IMG/VR virus record: IMGVR_UViG_3300045994_000309
Location: 1-23,733 of that record
DNA from: a virus
DNA length: 23,733 bases
Strand: one strand, 5' to 3'
The number at the start of each line of letters is the position of its first letter. The first letter of the stretch is position 1. The notes beneath the pieces are model-generated. The model worked only from the letters and a program-made list of their open reading frames with translations. It had not been told where the DNA came from and did no database searches. Positions 2,967 through 16,740 of the stretch are shown here, one piece after another. The position numbers and the translations under genes are program-made.

Positions 2967-4817
2967 ATGTCCACGCATTGGCTCGATCGCGTCACGGCGC
3001 CGATTGCTCCCCGCTGGACCCTCCGCCGCGCGCGCGCGCGCATGACCGGAGAACTCCTGCAGCGGCATTATGAGGCGGCCAGCGTCGGGCGCCGCACGAT
3101 GGGCTGGAATCGCTCCAGCACCGATGCGAATAGCGCCGCCGGTCCCGGACTTGCGAAACTCCGTGACGCCGCGCGCGATCTCGTCAGGAACAATCCATAC
3201 GCGGAGTCGGCGCTCTCGACGATTGTGGATCATGCGGTGGGCTGGGGCATCGTGCCAAAACCGTTGCCGCGCTCACAAGAGGCCCTCGATTCATGGAAGC
3301 GTTGGGCAGAGAGTACGGACTGCGATGCGGACGGCCGCCATGATTTCGCCGGCCTGCAGAAACTCGTGATGCGGACGATCGTGGAATCCGGCGAAGTCTT
3401 AGTCCGCCGGCGCTTCCGCTTGCCGCAAGACGGACTCTCGATTCCGATCCAGCTTCAAATCCTCGAACCCGACTTTCTCGATACGAGTAAGGATTTTCTG
3501 ACGCTCGCCAACGGCGGCCGGATCATCCAGGGCGTTGAATTCGATGCCATTGGCCGCAGCGTCGCTTACTGGCTGTTCCGTGAACATCCCGGATCGAATC
3601 TCGCCGGAATGCCCGCCTCGACGCGCGTCCCGGCCGACGGCGTCCGGCATATCTTCCGAAGTCAGCGTCCTGGTCAGGTGCGTGCCGCCTCCTGGTTCGC
3701 GCCGGTCCTTCTGCGCTTCAAAGACTTCGACGAATTCGAAGACGCCACACTGATGAAACAGAAGATCGCCGCCTGTCTGGCGGTGATCACGAGTGATGTG
3801 GATGGATCGGCGCCGGCCTTGGGCACAGTCGATCCGTCGCGTCCAGACATCGACAGCCTTGAGCCGGGGGCCATCATCAATGCCGCGCCGGGACGCACGA
3901 TCGAAGTGGTGCAGCCGCCGACCGTGCGGGAGTATGCCGATTATTGTGCCACGACGCTGCGTAGCATCGCGAGCGGCATCGGGGTGACGTACGAAGATTT
4001 GACGGGGAACTACGAAACCCTGTCGTTCTCGGCCGCGCGGATGTCGCGCATCCGTCACCAGGTGCGTGTGGATGATTGGCGCTGGCGTCTTCTGATTCCA
4101 CAGTTCTGCGATCCCGTGTGGCAATGGGTCGGCCAAGCGGCGGCGATAGCGAATACCCCAGGACTCCGCACGCAGCCGACGGCGGAATGGACCGCGCCGC
4201 CGATGCCGATGATCGAGCCTGATAAGGAAGGGCTTGCCTATCAGCGCAACATTCGATCCGGCATCATGACGCTGTCGGAAGCGATTCGCGAGCGCGGCTA
4301 TGACCCTGACGACATGCTCGGCGAGCTCGCTGCCGACTTCAAGAAACTCGACGGTCTTGGTCTGGTGCTTGACAGCGATCCTCGCAAGATGACGCAAGCC
4401 GGACAGGCGCAAAGCTTAACGCCGGCGGCTGCGGCACCCATCGACGCCGCAACTGCCAGCTCACGCGTGCTTGATTTCGCCTACGACGTGATTCGCGCGG
4501 AAGCGGCGCGCCCCATTGCGATCGATGCGCATATCGACCGCGGCGCGATTCAAGTCACCACGCCAGAGGTTAGGGTCGCCGGCCCTCAGATCACCTTTGC
4601 GAAAGATTCCATTCACACCGAAACGCCGGTCACGATCGCACCGGGAGCTGTTCGCGTGGATGTGCCGCTCTTGGCAGAATCGGTACACGTCGCCGCAGGA
4701 CGGAAAGTCATCGAGCGCGACAAAGACAATCGGATCACCGCGGTTCGCCATGAAGGCATCCCCGCCAACATTCATCTCGTCAGCGACGCGAAGGAACCTG
4801 CGACACGTGGCGCATAA
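2967..4817 (+). CDS. portal protein, lambda family
   Basis: This 616-residue protein forms the dodecameric ring through which DNA enters and leaves the capsid. Lambda-family portal signatures are visible in order: NPYAESALSTIVDHAVGWGI near residues 75-95, the GVEFDAIGRSVAYW strand pair, LEPGAIINAAPGRTIEVVQP, and GIGVTYEDLTGNYETLSFSA followed by ARMSRIRHQ. The ATG at 2967 has AGGAAAGG 7 nt upstream. The last 125 or so residues (about 491-616) are not standard portal core. They are rich in alternating Val/Ile-x-Val/Thr and Pro segments (IQVTTPEVRVAGPQITF, TETPVTIAPGAVRVDVP) and end in RKVIERDKDNRITAVRHEG, a module I associate with the C-termini of some phage head proteins. The end overlaps the next gene by 11 nt. 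Confidence 0.92.
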   Translation: MSTHWLDRVTAPIAPRWTLRRARARMTGELLQRHYEAASVGRRTMGWNRSSTDANSAAGPGLAKLRDAARDLVRNNPYAESALSTIVDHAVGWGIVPKPLPRSQEALDSWKRWAESTDCDADGRHDFAGLQKLVMRTIVESGEVLVRRRFRLPQDGLSIPIQLQILEPDFLDTSKDFLTLANGGRIIQGVEFDAIGRSVAYWLFREHPGSNLAGMPASTRVPADGVRHIFRSQRPGQVRAASWFAPVLLRFKDFDEFEDATLMKQKIAACLAVITSDVDGSAPALGTVDPSRPDIDSLEPGAIINAAPGRTIEVVQPPTVREYADYCATTLRSIASGIGVTYEDLTGNYETLSFSAARMSRIRHQVRVDDWRWRLLIPQFCDPVWQWVGQAAAIANTPGLRTQPTAEWTAPPMPMIEPDKEGLAYQRNIRSGIMTLSEAIRERGYDPDDMLGELAADFKKLDGLGLVLDSDPRKMTQAGQAQSLTPAAAAPIDAATASSRVLDFAYDVIRAEAARPIAIDAHIDRGAIQVTTPEVRVAGPQITFAKDSIHTETPVTIAPGAVRVDVPLLAESVHVAAGRKVIERDKDNRITAVRHEGIPANIHLVSDAKEPATRGA

Positions 4818-11336: not shown

Positions 11337-13379
11337 ATGGCAACGCGGTTCAGTTTATTCGACGAGGAATTCGAGAAGAAGGCGATATTTGATCCGGAGA
11401 TCAATAGCAAGGGGATCTTCGATCCGACCTTTTCTTCTAGCCTAGGTTCCTCTATTGGCGTTGGCGTCGCTGCCGGGTTAGCAACGGCCGCGGCCATCGG
11501 TCTTGCGACCGCCTTATCTCTCGCGAGCGCGGTCGGCGGATCAACAGCAACAGCAGTCGGCCAGAGCACGGTTGTTTCAGTCGGTTCATCGAGTGGATCG
11601 GCGACAGTTCTCGGCAGTGCCGCTGAGCAGGGCGCGGCAGTTGGTTCGTCTACAGCGACCGCGGTCGGATCTGCAATAGCGGTCAGTGTCGGTGCCTCGT
11701 CAGGATCTGCGTCGGTCACGGCGGTCGGTGCGTCTGCAGCGGAGGGCGCGGGAACATCGACTGGCGGATCAACCGTCACGGGTGTCGGTCAGAGTGCGGT
11801 TGTTGCGCGCGGATTGTCGGACGGATCGGCGGTAGCACTCGGCCAAGCCGCTCCACAGGGTCTAGCGGTTGGATCGGCGACAGCGACCGCCGTCGGATCA
11901 ACGGTAGCGGTCGGCATCGGCGCCTCTTCTGGATCAGCCTCGGCTACAGCGGAGGGTTCGGCCTCTGCTGTCAGCGCCGGAGTCTCGGCAGGCTCCACGA
12001 CGGTCGCAGCCGTTGGTGCGGGCTCGGCCTCCGCCGCCGGATCTTCGACTGGCACTTCTTCTGTTGCGGGTGTTGGGTTTAGCGCGGCGTCCGCAGTCGG
12101 GTCATCGGCTGGGAATTCCACCGCACAAGCGGCAGCCGCTCCACAGGGCGCGGCGGCCGGATCATCGACAGCGACAGCAACCGGGTCAGCGATAGCAGTC
12201 AGCGTCGGCGCCTCTTCAGGGTCTGGTTCAGTCACCGCGGTCGGCGCGGTTGCAGCGGAGGCTGTAGGAGCGTCGACTGGCGGATCGACCGTCACGGCCG
12301 TCGGGCAGAGTCTCGCGATTGCGGTCGGCAGTTCCGGAGGCGCGTCATCGGCGCAAGCCGCGGCGGCTCCACAGGGGAGCGCCGTTGGCACGTCTACAGT
12401 ATCAGCGGTTGGGTCCAGCACGGCTATCGGCGTGGGGGCATCCTCTGGGGCTTCCGCAGTCGCAGGAATTGGCGAATGGATCGGCGAAGGAGTCGGCGCC
12501 TCTCAAGGTGCATCAACCGTTAGCGCGGTCGGGCAAAGTGCAGCGGCGACGCTTGGAGTAGCGGCGGGCGGATCAACAGCAAGCGCCACAGGACAGAGCC
12601 TAGCCGTCGCCATCGGGTCGGCGACTGGTGACTCCACGGCATCGGCGGTCAATGCGGCGACGAACAACGGGTTAGCGGTCGGCGCTTCCTCAGCCGCCGC
12701 GGTTGGCGCGGCCTCTACCGTAGCTGTTGGCGCGTCGACTGGTTTAGCGACTGCGGCGGCCGTGGTGGCTGCACAGGGCACCGCAGTTGGTAGTTCAACC
12801 GTCGCCGCGATCGGCGCCAGTAGCGCGGTCGCTGTCGGATCTGTTACTGGAACCTCTACCGTAGTCGGCGTCAGCGGAGCCATCAACGTGGGTGCTGCTC
12901 CGGGTTCATCGACCGCGACGGCGATCGGTGCGGCCTCTTCTCGCGGTATTGGTGCGGCGTCTGGTGCGGCAACGGTGGCCGCGGTTGGTCTGGGGTCGGC
13001 CCGCGGCGCCGCAGTGGGCTCAGCGACAGTCATAGCGATTGGAAGCGCCAGTTCTGTCGGTGTTGGTGCGGCGGCTGGCAAAGCTGTCGCCATTGGGATC
13101 AATGCCGCAGCCTATCCCGTTCCGAAACCACGCCGCGAGGTGAGTGAAGGCGCTGGCGTCTTCCTGCCGCCTCAGCACCTGCGTATCAATGGGATCGCCA
13201 CGTTGGTCTGTGCGCCATCGCGTTGTGATGGCACGGGCTGGATCAAGCGGCCGCGGATCTTTGGAGAGGGTCAACTCATCGCTCCGGCCTCACAACTAGA
13301 GGGTGTGGGCCAGCACGACGACACGATTCTAGTAGAGGATCGCGAGCTCCTCATTCTCGATGCCACGGAGGCCGTATGA
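11337..13379 (+). CDS. large Gly/Ala/Ser/Val-rich repeat protein (fibre or adhesin-like)
   Basis: This 680-residue protein has three parts. Residues 1-35 are unique and carry a duplicated FDP motif (AIFDPE, GIFDPT). Residues about 36-592 are almost only Gly, Ala, Ser, Thr and Val in alternating strands, organised in 20-residue and 16-residue units. The unique C-terminal end (about 593-680) has KPRREVSEGAG, two cysteines (625 and 630) and DDTILVEDRELLILD. The repeats suggest a beta-solenoid or stacked beta-hairpin rod; the form recalls YadA-like adhesin heads but lacks their exact NSxAIG motif. No signal peptide is present, so it is probably a virion fibre. The SD is weak and the gene lies 4 nt after the previous one. 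Continuous reading frames opposite the repeat are composition artefacts. Confidence 0.75.
   Translation: MATRFSLFDEEFEKKAIFDPEINSKGIFDPTFSSSLGSSIGVGVAAGLATAAAIGLATALSLASAVGGSTATAVGQSTVVSVGSSSGSATVLGSAAEQGAAVGSSTATAVGSAIAVSVGASSGSASVTAVGASAAEGAGTSTGGSTVTGVGQSAVVARGLSDGSAVALGQAAPQGLAVGSATATAVGSTVAVGIGASSGSASATAEGSASAVSAGVSAGSTTVAAVGAGSASAAGSSTGTSSVAGVGFSAASAVGSSAGNSTAQAAAAPQGAAAGSSTATATGSAIAVSVGASSGSGSVTAVGAVAAEAVGASTGGSTVTAVGQSLAIAVGSSGGASSAQAAAAPQGSAVGTSTVSAVGSSTAIGVGASSGASAVAGIGEWIGEGVGASQGASTVSAVGQSAAATLGVAAGGSTASATGQSLAVAIGSATGDSTASAVNAATNNGLAVGASSAAAVGAASTVAVGASTGLATAAAVVAAQGTAVGSSTVAAIGASSAVAVGSVTGTSTVVGVSGAINVGAAPGSSTATAIGAASSRGIGAASGAATVAAVGLGSARGAAVGSATVIAIGSASSVGVGAAAGKAVAIGINAAAYPVPKPRREVSEGAGVFLPPQHLRINGIATLVCAPSRCDGTGWIKRPRIFGEGQLIAPASQLEGVGQHDDTILVEDRELLILDATEAV
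11442..13112 (+). repeat. tandem degenerate 60/48-nt coding repeat
   Basis: Units begin with Gly-x-Ser/Ala and have the form GASSGSASVTAVGASAAEGA (20 residues) or GSSTATAVGSAIAVSV (16 residues). The short unit follows a marker, (A)PQG-x-AV or (A)xxG-x-AV. The marker Gly falls at residues 99, 175, 271, 347, 445 and 481. The spacings 76, 96, 76, 98 and 36 equal 16 plus 20 times 3, 4, 3, 4 (plus two residues) and 1. Near-identical segments suggest expansion by recombination. Confidence 0.8.
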
Positions 13380-13609
13380 TCAATCCAAGTCAATTACAGA
13401 ATATGGCCATCTTCCCGGAGGCCCTACTCGATCGACACCTTGAGGTCAGCGAAGAGACAGGAGACTCAGTGGAACACGGAGAACTTCCCACAGATCCACC
13501 GAAAGACAACAAGGGATTCGTTCCGGGTGGACAGCGGCCGGTGAGCGAATCCACTGAGGGCGTCAGTATGACGAGGAACGATGGCCAGAAAGCGCAGCAC
13601 GATGGATAA
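13376..13609 (+). CDS. small acidic hypothetical protein
   Basis: This 77-residue protein starts at ATG 13376, in an ATGA overlap with the repeat-protein stop and with GGAGG close upstream (3 nt, a tight spacing). It is hydrophilic, Glu/Pro/Ser-rich and probably disordered (SEETGDSVEHGELPTDPPKD), with no recognised domain. Its position after the fibre-like protein may mean it is a small accessory or linker. It overlaps the start of the HTH gene by 29 nt in another frame. Confidence that it is a real gene is moderate, supported mainly by operon packing. Confidence 0.5.
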   Translation: MINPSQLQNMAIFPEALLDRHLEVSEETGDSVEHGELPTDPPKDNKGFVPGGQRPVSESTEGVSMTRNDGQKAQHDG

Positions 13610-13841
13610 GTCACACGATCTTCAGACGCGGACTGTGGTTGCTGGGTCGCTTTCTGGGCCCAGTGCATCCGACCAGATCGGGATGGTGTCACCGTCTCGG
13701 CTGGCGTCGTTTTGGGGCGTGCATCCGAACACGATCTATCGAGACATTCGCAAAGGCGCGCTGCGGGCCTTTCGCCTGCCTAGTGGCCAACTCCGGATCA
13801 GTAGGAAAGACGCACGCCAGTACGGGCGCCCGACTGAATAG
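13581..13841 (+). CDS. small HTH (excisionase-type) DNA-binding protein
   Basis: This 86-residue protein has an unstructured N-terminus followed by a MerR/excisionase-like winged HTH: PSRLASFWGVHPNTIYRDIR, then KGALRAFRLPSGQLRISRKD and ARQYGRP. The 'aSfwgVhpnTIyrdirkGaLrAfrlpsgqlRIsrkDa' pattern is that of HTH_17 proteins. These act as excisionases, terminase-like binders or transcription regulators. ATG 13581 has GAGG 4 nt upstream; an internal ATG at 13602 has no SD. It is the last gene before the capsid transcript start region, so it may regulate head-gene expression. That is inference from position. Confidence 0.75.
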   Translation: MARKRSTMDKSHDLQTRTVVAGSLSGPSASDQIGMVSPSRLASFWGVHPNTIYRDIRKGALRAFRLPSGQLRISRKDARQYGRPTE

Positions 13842-13933
13842 CGTGTGGCGTGGGTTTAACCAACCGCAACTAATCCCACCATCTCTCACTAATCCGTAGG
13901 TAAGTCTCTTCTCATCCTCCTCTATATCTGCGA

Positions 13934-13954
13934 CCGTGCCTACACATGGCACGG
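13934..13954 (+). promoter_or_regulatory. perfect hairpin with the capsid-fusion start codon in its loop
   Basis: CCGTGCC (13934-13940) pairs perfectly with GGCACGG (13948-13954) around TACACAT. The first two bases of the ATG at 13946 lie in the loop and its G in the stem. No SD is visible in the pyrimidine-rich leader just upstream (13900-13933). The nearest purine stretch, AGGTAAG, lies more than 40 nt away. This should make initiation at 13946 weak. Confidence 0.6.
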
Positions 13955-15967
13955 CCCTCTCCGCAGACGATTGACGTTCCGCCCCTGAGTCTCCGCGCCG
14001 AAGTCTCATCCTTTAACGAAGAACAGCGCACCGTGGATCTTATTTTCTCCACCGGCGCGCCCGTCGAACGCTTCGATTGGATGAGCGGCAAACGCTACCT
14101 CGAAGTCCTGTCGATGGAGCCGAAGGCGATCAGGCTGGAGCGCATGAATTCCGGCGCCCCGTTATTGGACAGTCACAGCGCATGGTCCGTGACTGATCAA
14201 CTCGGTGCCGTCGTGCCAGGAACTGCGCGGATCGAAAAAGGCCACGCGCTTGCCACGGTGAAATTCAGCGCACGCGCGGCGGTCGCCGGGGTGCTGCAAG
14301 ATGTGAAAGACCAAATTATCCGCAGCGTGAGCGTTGGTTACAGAGTTCGCGCGTTTGTCGAAGACACGTCGAAAGACGGCGTGATTCCGACGCGCACGGC
14401 GACCGACTGGGAACCCTACGAAATCTCTCTCGTCTCTATGCCCGCAGATAACGGCGCCAAGATTCGCCGGGCCGATGTCGAAACGAATTCCTGCATTTTG
14501 ATTTCTCGTGATCTTCCGAAGGAGACCGTCATGGCCGAAACGCCTGGTGAGAATGTGCGTCAAGACAAGTCCGAATTCGTGGTGGAACAGGATCCGCTGA
14601 AGCCGGAGTCCACCACGCAGCGCCTGGCGCTGGCCGATGACAAAAAGAAAGAACCGAACGACCGGGATCGGGGTGTCATTGCCGAGCGCGAGCGCGTGCA
14701 GGGCATTAACAATGCCTGTCGGGCGGCGCGCCTCCCGAACGCCTTCGGGGACGACCTTATTCAGAGCGGCATGAGCTTGGTCGACGCGCAGACGCGGGTC
14801 TTCAAGGAGCTCCAGAGCCGCGAAGCGGACGGCCCCCGTCCTGGCGGCGTGGCATTAGCCTCGGTCAGCGACAACATGGTGCATGTGCGCGCCGGCATCG
14901 AGAACGCCATCCTCCATCGCATTTCGCCGACCCTCTTCAAGTTGGAAGACGTCGGCCGGGACTATCGCGGGATGACGCTCATCGGCATCGCGGATTCGTA
15001 TCTGAAAGCTCAAGGCGTTCGGACGACGAGACTCTCCAAGTCCGAAATTGCTGGGATGGCGCTCGGCCTGAATCAGCGGGGTGGGTATCACACCACGTCT
15101 GATTTTGCCGACCTGCTCGAAGGGATCGTGAGCCAGACGCTGCGCAAAGCCTATGACGAGGCCCCACAGACCTACACGGTCATCTCGCGCCAGATGACGG
15201 CGCCTGATTTCAAGAACATCACCATGCTGCAATTCGGCGAAGCGCCGGCGCTGGTGGAAGTGAAAGAGCACGGCGAGTACACCAGGGGCACCATCGGGCT
15301 CGGCAAGGAAGCGTTCGCGCTCAAGACTTACGGCCGCATTTTCGCCATCACCCGCGCCGCGTTGGTGAACGACGATGTCGATGCGTTCTCGCAAGTGCCG
15401 CTCAAGTTCGGACGGTCGGCGCGCACGCTGGAATCGGATCTCGTCTGGGCGCAGATCACTGGGAACGCGCAGATGGGCGACAACGAAAATCTGTTCTCGG
15501 CGGCGCACGCCAATCTCGAAACCGATGGCGATCGCATCTCGATTGACTCCCTCAGCCGGGCACGCAGGGCCATCCGGCTGCAGACGAGCACCGATGGCAC
15601 GACGATGATGAACCTGACGCCGAAGTATCTGCTCGTGCCGCCCTCGCTGGAAACGGTCGCGCAGCAGTTCGTCGGACAGATCACGCCGTCCTCGGCCGCC
15701 AATGCCAATCCGTTCTCCGGTCTGCTGACGGTCATTGCTGAGCCGAGGCTTGAGGATGACAGCGCGCTCGCCTGGTATCTGGCAGTCTCGCCCGACCAGA
15801 CGGACATCGTCGTTTACGCCTACCTGGAAGGCCAGACGGGACCAACGATCGAGCAGCGGGTGGGCTTCGACGTGGACGGCCTCGAAATCAAGTGTCGGCA
15901 CGACTTCGCCGCGAAGGTGGTCGACTGGCGCGGCCTGCACAAGGATCCGGGCGAAGAGGATAGCTAA
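13946..15967 (+). CDS. prohead protease / major capsid protein fusion
   Basis: This 673-residue polyprotein has two functions. Residues about 15-175 are an HK97/U35-type prohead protease: LRAEVSSFNEEQRTVDLIFS at the start, LLDSHSAW with catalytic-type H77, IIRSVSVGYRV with serine 127/129, and EPYEISLVSMPAD. Residues about 196-673 are the scaffold-like linker (ERERVQGINNACRAA to KELQSRE) and a gpT/HK97-type major capsid protein with FKNITMLQFGEAPAL, GKEAFALKTYGRIFAITR and YLEGQTGPTIEQRVGFDVDG near the end. Fused protease-capsid genes are known in some phages and Mu-like elements. The 13946 ATG has no SD and sits in a hairpin. A strong internal start at 14531 exists. Confidence 0.88.
   Translation: MARPSPQTIDVPPLSLRAEVSSFNEEQRTVDLIFSTGAPVERFDWMSGKRYLEVLSMEPKAIRLERMNSGAPLLDSHSAWSVTDQLGAVVPGTARIEKGHALATVKFSARAAVAGVLQDVKDQIIRSVSVGYRVRAFVEDTSKDGVIPTRTATDWEPYEISLVSMPADNGAKIRRADVETNSCILISRDLPKETVMAETPGENVRQDKSEFVVEQDPLKPESTTQRLALADDKKKEPNDRDRGVIAERERVQGINNACRAARLPNAFGDDLIQSGMSLVDAQTRVFKELQSREADGPRPGGVALASVSDNMVHVRAGIENAILHRISPTLFKLEDVGRDYRGMTLIGIADSYLKAQGVRTTRLSKSEIAGMALGLNQRGGYHTTSDFADLLEGIVSQTLRKAYDEAPQTYTVISRQMTAPDFKNITMLQFGEAPALVEVKEHGEYTRGTIGLGKEAFALKTYGRIFAITRAALVNDDVDAFSQVPLKFGRSARTLESDLVWAQITGNAQMGDNENLFSAAHANLETDGDRISIDSLSRARRAIRLQTSTDGTTMMNLTPKYLLVPPSLETVAQQFVGQITPSSAANANPFSGLLTVIAEPRLEDDSALAWYLAVSPDQTDIVVYAYLEGQTGPTIEQRVGFDVDGLEIKCRHDFAAKVVDWRGLHKDPGEEDS
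14518..14533 (+). promoter_or_regulatory. strong internal ribosome site in the fusion gene
   Basis: GAAGGAG (14518-14524) lies 6 nt before an in-frame ATG (14531, codon 196), followed by GCC. This is the spacing and strength of the best SDs elsewhere in the window, such as the ones for 5502 and 16001. It stands exactly at the junction between the protease domain and the capsid part. Confidence 0.65.
14531..15967 (+). CDS. major capsid protein from internal start (nested product)
   Basis: This product shares the reading frame and stop of the 13946 fusion gene. Starting at codon 196 it would give a 478-residue protein (MAETPGENVRQDKSEF onwards). That includes the charged scaffold-like delta segment (about residues 240-290 of the fusion) and the whole capsid fold. 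Its length fits a stand-alone capsid protein with delta domain. Hundreds of capsid copies but few protease copies are needed per head, and an internal start would give this ratio. Nested in-frame head genes are known from lambda (C and Nu3). Whether it is used is inferred from the SD alone. Confidence 0.5.
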   Translation: MAETPGENVRQDKSEFVVEQDPLKPESTTQRLALADDKKKEPNDRDRGVIAERERVQGINNACRAARLPNAFGDDLIQSGMSLVDAQTRVFKELQSREADGPRPGGVALASVSDNMVHVRAGIENAILHRISPTLFKLEDVGRDYRGMTLIGIADSYLKAQGVRTTRLSKSEIAGMALGLNQRGGYHTTSDFADLLEGIVSQTLRKAYDEAPQTYTVISRQMTAPDFKNITMLQFGEAPALVEVKEHGEYTRGTIGLGKEAFALKTYGRIFAITRAALVNDDVDAFSQVPLKFGRSARTLESDLVWAQITGNAQMGDNENLFSAAHANLETDGDRISIDSLSRARRAIRLQTSTDGTTMMNLTPKYLLVPPSLETVAQQFVGQITPSSAANANPFSGLLTVIAEPRLEDDSALAWYLAVSPDQTDIVVYAYLEGQTGPTIEQRVGFDVDGLEIKCRHDFAAKVVDWRGLHKDPGEEDS

Positions 15968-16000
15968 ACACCGCGCTGCGGCGCTGAAGGAGATTCGGTT

Positions 16001-16339
16001 ATGAAAACTTACGTGCAACCGGGCGAGAGCATCGAGTTCACGGCCCCGGATGACATCACCAGCGGTACGCCGGTGCTGATCGGGAACGTGCTGGGCGTGG
16101 CGACGAAAGATGCCGTGCAGGGCGAGCGCATCAACTTTCTGATGCGTGGCGTGGTCAGTTACACCAAGACCGGATCGCAGGCCTGGGCGGAAGGCCAGCT
16201 CGTGTACTGGGATGGCAGCGTCTTCACGACCGGGGGCGGCTTCCTGGCGGGGTTTGCGACCAAGGCCGTCGCCGGTGGGGCGGGCGATACGACCGGGGAA
16301 CTGTATCTGGACGGTATCCCGAAGGACGACACGACCTAG
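16001..16339 (+). CDS. capsid decoration (cement) protein, DUF2190-like
   Basis: This 112-residue protein has a strong SD (GAAGGAGA, ending about 8 nt before ATG 16001). It binds the outside of the mature capsid and stabilises it. The sequence follows the DUF2190 pattern: YVQPGESIEFTAPDDITSGT, PVLIGNVLGVATKDAVQGE, then a GVVSYTKTGSQAWAEGQLVY strand set and WDGSVFTTGG, ending in ELYLDGIP. Its place right after the capsid gene is standard. A short CCGC-GCT-GCGG hairpin lies just before the SD. Confidence 0.85.
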   Translation: MKTYVQPGESIEFTAPDDITSGTPVLIGNVLGVATKDAVQGERINFLMRGVVSYTKTGSQAWAEGQLVYWDGSVFTTGGGFLAGFATKAVAGGAGDTTGELYLDGIPKDDTT

Positions 16340-16359
16340 CGGTCGCACAGAGTAGTCGC

Positions 16360-16740
16360 ATGGATCTGTCGTCGGTGCGCAGTTTGGCGCTGGATGCCGT
16401 GTTCAGCGCGCATGGGGTGCCAGCGACGGTGACGCGGCCGGATGAAAATCCGATCACGACGCGGGTGCTCTGGGTGCCGGACAACACGGGCTGGGGTGCC
16501 ACCGACGAGACGCATCTGGAGATTCTGAAGGTCGTGAGTCGCCGGGTCATGGCGCTTCGCCTTTCTGAAGTGTCCGCCGCTCCGGTCGGCACGATCGTGA
16601 CGGCACCAGCGGCAGCTGGACAAGACGACCTAACCTGGCGCGTGGATGAAATCGGCCACCAGGAGCCCGAGTTGATTCGCGTGTTTGTGCAGCCGATGCG
16701 GGACAGTAGCCATCTTGAGGCATGGGGAAAATCCTCATGA
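16360..16740 (+). CDS. head-tail connector, gpFII-like
   Basis: This 126-residue protein has the size and position of lambda gpFII, which joins the gpW-capped head to the tail. Visible elements are an N-terminal helix (SSVRSLALDAVFSAHGVPAT), strands ITTRVLWVP and LEILKVVSRRVMALRLSEV, GTIVTAPAAAGQDDLTWRVD and IRVFVQPM at the end. This is the strand order of the FII/Phage_attach type. The similarity is moderate. A tail-terminator role cannot be excluded, since no separate gpU gene is present. The SD at ATG 16360 is not clear. Confidence 0.55.
   Translation: MDLSSVRSLALDAVFSAHGVPATVTRPDENPITTRVLWVPDNTGWGATDETHLEILKVVSRRVMALRLSEVSAAPVGTIVTAPAAAGQDDLTWRVDEIGHQEPELIRVFVQPMRDSSHLEAWGKSS

Follow-up and report, generated by a model that had tools for sequence, protein, structure and literature searches.

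An in-frame internal start codon conserved at the protease-capsid junction of a family of fused phage head genes

Phages with HK97-type capsids need hundreds of capsid subunits and far fewer proteases, and it had been unclear how this demand is met when the two are encoded by one fused gene. The question is raised by the window, i.e., the whole 23,733-nt stretch of viral DNA that was analyzed (IMG/VR record IMGVR_UViG_3300045994_000309), in which a prohead protease and a capsid protein share a reading frame with a second candidate start codon at their junction.

The fused gene and its two start codons

The features of the locus, including its Shine-Dalgarno (SD) sequences, are the following.

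13946 to 13948, plus strand: first start ATG, without an SD (dG, -1.7; local fold, -20.0)
13946 to 15967, plus strand: protease-scaffold-capsid fusion gene (673 aa, 2,022 nt; NCBIfam NF045541)
13946 to 14467, plus strand: S78-type prohead protease domain, residues 1 to 174 (PF04586 at residues 111 to 174; TIGR01543, partial)
14516 to 14653, plus strand: disordered linker with the internal start, residues 191 to 236 including M196 (AlphaFold2 pLDDT < 50)
14518 to 14524, plus strand: internal SD, GAAGGAG, seen in the sequence (dG, -8.8) and enriched family-wide
14531 to 14533, plus strand: internal start ATG, codon 196, in frame; a start codon is found at the junction in 100 of 100 relatives
14531 to 15967, plus strand: nested reading frame for a scaffold-capsid precursor (478 aa, beginning MAETPGENVR), a second product predicted from the frame and comparative evidence
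14660 to 14827, plus strand: three helices, delta/scaffold-like region, residues 239 to 294 (AlphaFold2 model)
14828 to 14866, plus strand: low-confidence hinge, residues 295 to 307 (AlphaFold2)
14873 to 15946, plus strand: HK97-fold capsid domain, residues 310 to 667 (PF25209, Foldseek)
15986 to 15992, plus strand: SD of the cement gene, GAAGGAG, preceding the ATG at 16001 (dG, -8.8)
16001 to 16339, plus strand: cement/decoration protein gene (PF09956)

The fusion gene is the only long ORF at this locus. Its protein met the membership cutoff of NF045541, the prohead protease/major capsid protein fusion family (714.7 bits versus a cutoff of 525), and it has the architecture of that family, with an N-terminal S78-type protease (PF04586) and a C-terminal HK97-type capsid protein (PF25209) in one ORF. 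Membership in NF045540, the ClpP-like protease/MCP fusion, was not met (322.6 versus a cutoff of 475 bits), and the match to that model begins at residue 215, past the protease. Within the protease domain, H77 and S129 are invariant across the family, S129 being the candidate catalytic serine. A second contig (L002) is identical to the window over 2,255 nt.

In an AlphaFold2 model of the 673-aa protein (mean pLDDT, 79), the protease is beta rich, and its final strand is predicted at residues 181 to 188. The S78 Pfam match stops at residue 174, and the PF25209 capsid match spans residues 379 to 665 (2.7e-50); Foldseek matched the modeled capsid domain to the HK97 and Mu capsids. We found no solved structure close to the family of this protein, the profile search having returned Mu-type capsids only, and Pseudoalteromonas TW1 was rejected as a solved fusion because it encodes the coat protein in a gene apart from the protease. 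A scaffold role for the helices at residues 239 to 294 is inferred by analogy to the HK97 delta domain. The hinge at residues 295 to 307 would be the most likely zone of a maturation cut, cleavage itself being inferred and not shown, and the mature capsid protein probably begins near residue 300, again by inference.

The sequence-only reading had claimed that GAAGGAG lies 6 nt before an in-frame ATG at codon 196, that the first start has no SD, and that the internal start falls where the protease ends and the capsid part begins. Each of these points held, the first two in the sequence and in the dG values and the third in the domain layout, as M196 lies in the disordered linker that follows the S78 match. 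The spacer is ACCGTC, and the internal SD has the same motif and the same dG as that of the next head gene, encoding the cement protein. The predicted mRNA fold (-35 to +35) is -14.3 at the internal start versus -20.0 at the first start, and no alternative ATG, GTG, or TTG occurs upstream of 13946 as far as the nearest in-frame stop. Taken alone, the SD of the window is not significant, with 14.5% of synonymous shuffles being equally strong, and the claim therefore rests on the family. An internal promoter for a separate capsid mRNA was considered and rejected, as no sigma-70-like site was found in 13300 to 16500 (other promoter types were not covered).

The portal gene (2967 to 4817) and the capsid gene, normally neighbors, are ~9 kb apart in the window, and a 680-aa ORF between them (11337 to 13379) has no Pfam or NCBIfam match. 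Just upstream of the capsid gene, a small ORF (13581 to 13841) appears, by eye only, to encode an excisionase-type helix-turn-helix-like protein (LASFWGVHPNTIYRDIRKGALRAFRLPSGQLRISRKDARQYGR), which is unusual within a head-gene module.

Selection for initiation at the junction across the family

Relatives were gathered without the junction as bait, yielding a sample of 100 nonredundant PF25209-type fusions, together with 23 in which this type of protease is joined to a PF05065-type capsid. The 100 were selected for few shared 4-mers; the shuffles assume their independence, and some relatedness remains. An in-frame ATG is present in the protease-capsid linker of 98 of the 100 PF25209-type relatives, and the other two carry, at the same place, a TTG after AAGGAGG (SD, -11.4) and a GTG after AAAAGGAG (SD, -8.7). 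The methionine is thus replaced only by other start codons, indicating that it is the start-codon function, not the residue, that has been kept.

An SD with a dG of ≤ -5 precedes 83 of the 98 junction ATGs, versus 56 ± 3.6 in synonymous shuffles (maximum, 65 in 200 shuffles) and 27 ± 4.5 when the order of the linker codons was shuffled (maximum, 39). Such an SD was reached by 17% of the other in-frame ATGs in the same genes (P value = 8e-29) and by out-of-frame ATGs in 22 and 1 of 100. The excess was also seen when the ATG was picked blind to its SD (z = -6.2) and when SDs were scored by exact match (60 observed versus 35.6 expected; maximum, 47 in 500 shuffles). The signal has its only peak where the spacing to the ATG is right (z = -6 to -7), with SD-like sequence depleted on either side; in the null for this profile, offsets -39 and -15 were ignored, having been spoiled by a no-duplex sentinel. 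The mRNA near the junction ATG is less folded than synonymous versions of it (z = 8.4).

The SD cores are spread over all three codon phases (46/15/21), for example, AAG-GAG (KE) in the window and CAA-GGA-GCT (QGA), among others, in other relatives, and therefore no shared peptide motif can explain them. A protein-motif explanation of the junction signal was rejected on the codon-phase and synonymous tests. Internal SD strength also covaries with the SD strength of the next gene (rho = 0.37, P value = 4.5e-4; Fisher P value = 3.5e-4), and in AT-rich phages without SDs (L012, L020, L026, and L030), the ATG is kept while the SD is absent at both the internal start and the next gene. Approximately 15% of relatives lack a clear SD; some of these belong to generally SD-less phages and some do not (for example, L154 and L157). 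In one phage without classical SDs (L169), nearly the same leader, GAAAGAC-CC-CC, precedes the ATG of the nested frame and that of the next gene, which suggests a phage-specific ribosome-binding motif.

These data show that a start signal is present, where it is placed, and that initiation at the junction is under selection throughout the family. The gene thereby satisfies one criterion for an in-frame nested gene of the lambda C/Nu3 type, namely, a selected internal start codon that has an SD to itself; that two proteins with a common C terminus are made is inferred. Homologues lacking both the SD and the methionine would have refuted the sequence-only reading; it passed this check, as none of the 100 nonredundant relatives lacks a junction start codon and the SD is enriched beyond what the peptide accounts for.

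In nine nonredundant relatives (ten loci; L040 duplicates L039), a stop codon lies at the junction. The capsid gene starts 3 to 99 nt past this stop with an SD of -6.2 to -12 in eight of the nine, and the ninth (L084) has weak start candidates only (-5 to -6); FP_Epona and Dulem virus 34 are annotated with a separate capsid gene. The protease tree requires five changes between fused and split states, at least four of them forced by well-supported branches, and the split genes L039 and L043 fall in the window's own group, where one state change occurs. Fused and split forms thus interconvert, a switch that would demand least if the start of the capsid part functions in either arrangement.

A separate observation concerns the capsid genes at L023:3705, L039:3640, L043:3641, and L084:2467, which open with a hydrophobic, signal-peptide-like stretch before the scaffold region (examples among the split relatives are MQTHTLMPFLVAMFVAVAAMP and MSRSFLAAAFLSALVALTFFSAPEAFA). 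Such a beginning is odd for a capsid protein and might conceivably serve as a membrane anchor for prohead assembly.

The junction start in other fusion types

All 23 PF05065-type fusions, which have the same protease type, carry an in-frame junction ATG, and 16 of the 23 have an SD of ≤ -5. Such “class II” loci (L102, L073, L100, L113, and others) make up about one-fifth of the relatives, and the two that were scored fell below the NF045541 cutoff.

Among PAJU2-type fusions, the junction ATG is present in 27 of 27, and an SD of ≤ -7 is present in 21, versus 10.4 expected (maximum, 16 of 300; z = -5.3). Pseudomonas phage PAJU2 resembles the window in fusing a prohead protease to an HK97-type capsid protein, with an ATG at codon 197 after AGGAGGG (dG, -10.8), but its capsid belongs to another family and it has been described as a self-cleaving polyprotein (PMC8306868). 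Nocturne116 and GE1 have weaker junction signals (-5.6 and -6.0).

Gene l5 of Lactococcus phage c2 is likewise a protease-capsid ORF with a junction ATG, at codon 131 after AAAGGAG (-8.7). In the record of the c2-like phage eb1, the capsid coding sequence is annotated from the internal ATG, and Pfam PF06673 (c2/eb1 major capsid) also begins there, so that the earlier statement that no described case was known for this fusion family needs tempering. Codon 206, which lies downstream of the internal start, is noted as the first of the mature c2 capsid protein. The c2 and eb1 genes differ from the window in belonging to another capsid family and in having the two starts annotated in separate records, and we found no statement that both products are made from this gene. 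A c2-type protease-capsid gene in Lactococcus phage CHPC1183 (L296:783-1974) lacks the N-terminal part and has a frameshift before the capsid part; the genome was deposited as that of a complete phage, and the broken gene is either a sequencing error or a variant.

The “tripartite capsid gene” of Salmonella phage Gifsy-2 (NF045540) is a protease-middle-capsid composite with ATG221 near the junction after GAGGAG (dG, -8.8). It differs from the window in its ClpP-like protease and in a conserved peptide, EEFxxMP, that covers the site, and the nucleotide test therefore has little power there. The ClpP fusions of E. coli phages have a suggestive SD (-6) and a peptide too conserved to test. In the Paracoccus ClpP fusion Psul1, GAAGGAG is followed by a 6-nt spacing and an ATG (dG, -8.8), and Psul1-like fusions have the junction ATG in 7 of 7 cases with SDs of -5.3 to -8.8, which are too few for statistics. 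The junction start thus recurs in PAJU2-type and c2-type fusions; for ClpP-type fusions, the evidence is suggestive.

Two products from one frame and the alternatives

It is very likely that genes of this family yield two products through internal initiation at the junction, as had been proposed for the window (673 and 478 residues). The support is comparative, without data from proteins, ribosome profiling, or toeprinting in any of the phages; use of the start in the window phage, the making of both products, their ratio, their coassembly, and trimming are all inferred. In the proposed mechanism, initiation at 13946 would produce the 673-aa protease-scaffold-capsid chain, and independent initiation at 14531 after GAAGGAG would produce a 478-aa scaffold-capsid chain with the same C terminus. 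The shorter chain would most likely be the bulk prohead building block, and the longer chain would coassemble through the shared capsid part, placing a substoichiometric protease inside the prohead, which would then trim the scaffold region.

HK97 gp5 is a scaffold-plus-capsid precursor with the same layout as the predicted 478-aa product. In such a precursor, the protease removes a helical N-terminal region before maturation; for the window protein, helices (residues 239 to 294) and a flexible segment (295 to 307) are predicted, and removal of the region is only inferred, with the mature start of c2 at codon 206 as a parallel. The claim that the 478-residue product is the capsid protein held in part: it begins with a disordered stretch and HK97-delta-like helices and is probably a precursor that is trimmed. 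A proteomic search of virions for MAETPGENVR would therefore probably find nothing, even were the reading right.

The further claim of a scarce fusion and an abundant capsid protein is an inference. The two predicted starts of the window (SD, -8.8 for the internal versus -1.7 for the first) make it likely that this phage produces more of the short form than of the long one. Family-wide, only 59% of genes have an internal SD stronger than that of the best first-start candidate, so the ratio either differs between phages or is set by other means. Coupling to the upstream gene, the start codon, or RNA structure may also contribute to dosage.

The alternative with the most in its favor is fusion-only translation, in which each capsid subunit would enter the prohead with its own protease and self-cleave near the junction, the conserved methionine and the KE/QE-rich peptide being the protease cleavage site. 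Self-cleavage has been proposed for PAJU2 and Nocturne116 (PMC8306868), and proteolysis can release a capsid protein from a fusion; Gifsy-2 has a composite protease-middle-capsid gene (according to the paper title), and the mature c2 capsid protein is consistent with processing. However, the signal lies at the nucleotide level, exceeding synonymous shuffles, occurring in three codon phases, and tolerating only GTG or TTG in place of the methionine. Fusion-only translation also gives no reason for the mRNA to be open or for the internal SD to covary with that of the next gene, and the cut in c2 lies a long way past the internal start. We consider this explanation very unlikely.

The internal start could instead be an unused relic of a recent fusion between protease and capsid genes. 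In its favor, some relatives have separate genes, and in most of these an SD at the corresponding place precedes the start of the capsid gene. However, fused relatives that are 30 to 40% identical keep the signal although their linker peptides cannot be aligned, a relic would decay, and selection against synonymous change is still visible; this explanation is also very unlikely. A programmed pause that aids folding is all but excluded, for although the SD-like site lies exactly between the domains, a pause needs no start codon, yet one always follows, mostly at 5 to 9 nt, and elsewhere in the vicinity SD-like sequence is depleted.

Internal initiation with dual products remains our preferred reading. 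A bolder form of it, toward which we lean only slightly, holds that all kinds of protease-capsid fusions (S78 with two capsid families, PAJU2-type, c2-type, and ClpP-type) are dual-product genes, that evolution tolerated fusion time after time only because free capsid precursor kept coming from an internal start, and that the fusion protein, as the minor product, serves as a built-in carrier of the protease into the prohead. If this is true, major capsid proteins in hundreds of phages are annotated with the wrong N terminus. The conserved internal start offers a testable mechanism for dosage and alters the annotated capsid sequence in a curated family, suggesting that the construct to express is the 478-aa and not the 673-aa form and indicating which N terminus to seek. 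Recurrence in several fusion types, together with repeated switching between fused and split states, would show how gene fusion can leave separate control of dosage intact.

Both the definition and the name of NF045541 treat it as a single fusion protein, and its description, as returned by the search tool, includes neither an internal start nor a second product. We found no statement of a second product for such fusion genes in the literature searched; most subscription papers, including that on Gifsy-2, were outside its scope, and the novelty claim is therefore limited likewise. The lambda C/Nu3 genes, the precedent named in the sequence-only reading, are retained as the closest known kind, and herpesvirus UL26/UL26.5 is similar. 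Like the proposed window gene, both systems give two products with a common C terminus from one frame. Their long product carries the maturation protease, and the short product is the abundant assembly partner. The lambda C protease is ClpP/S49-like, whereas that of the window is S78-like. In lambda and the herpesviruses, the nested frame encodes a scaffold, which departs from the particle, whereas in the window it would comprise both the scaffold and the major capsid protein itself.
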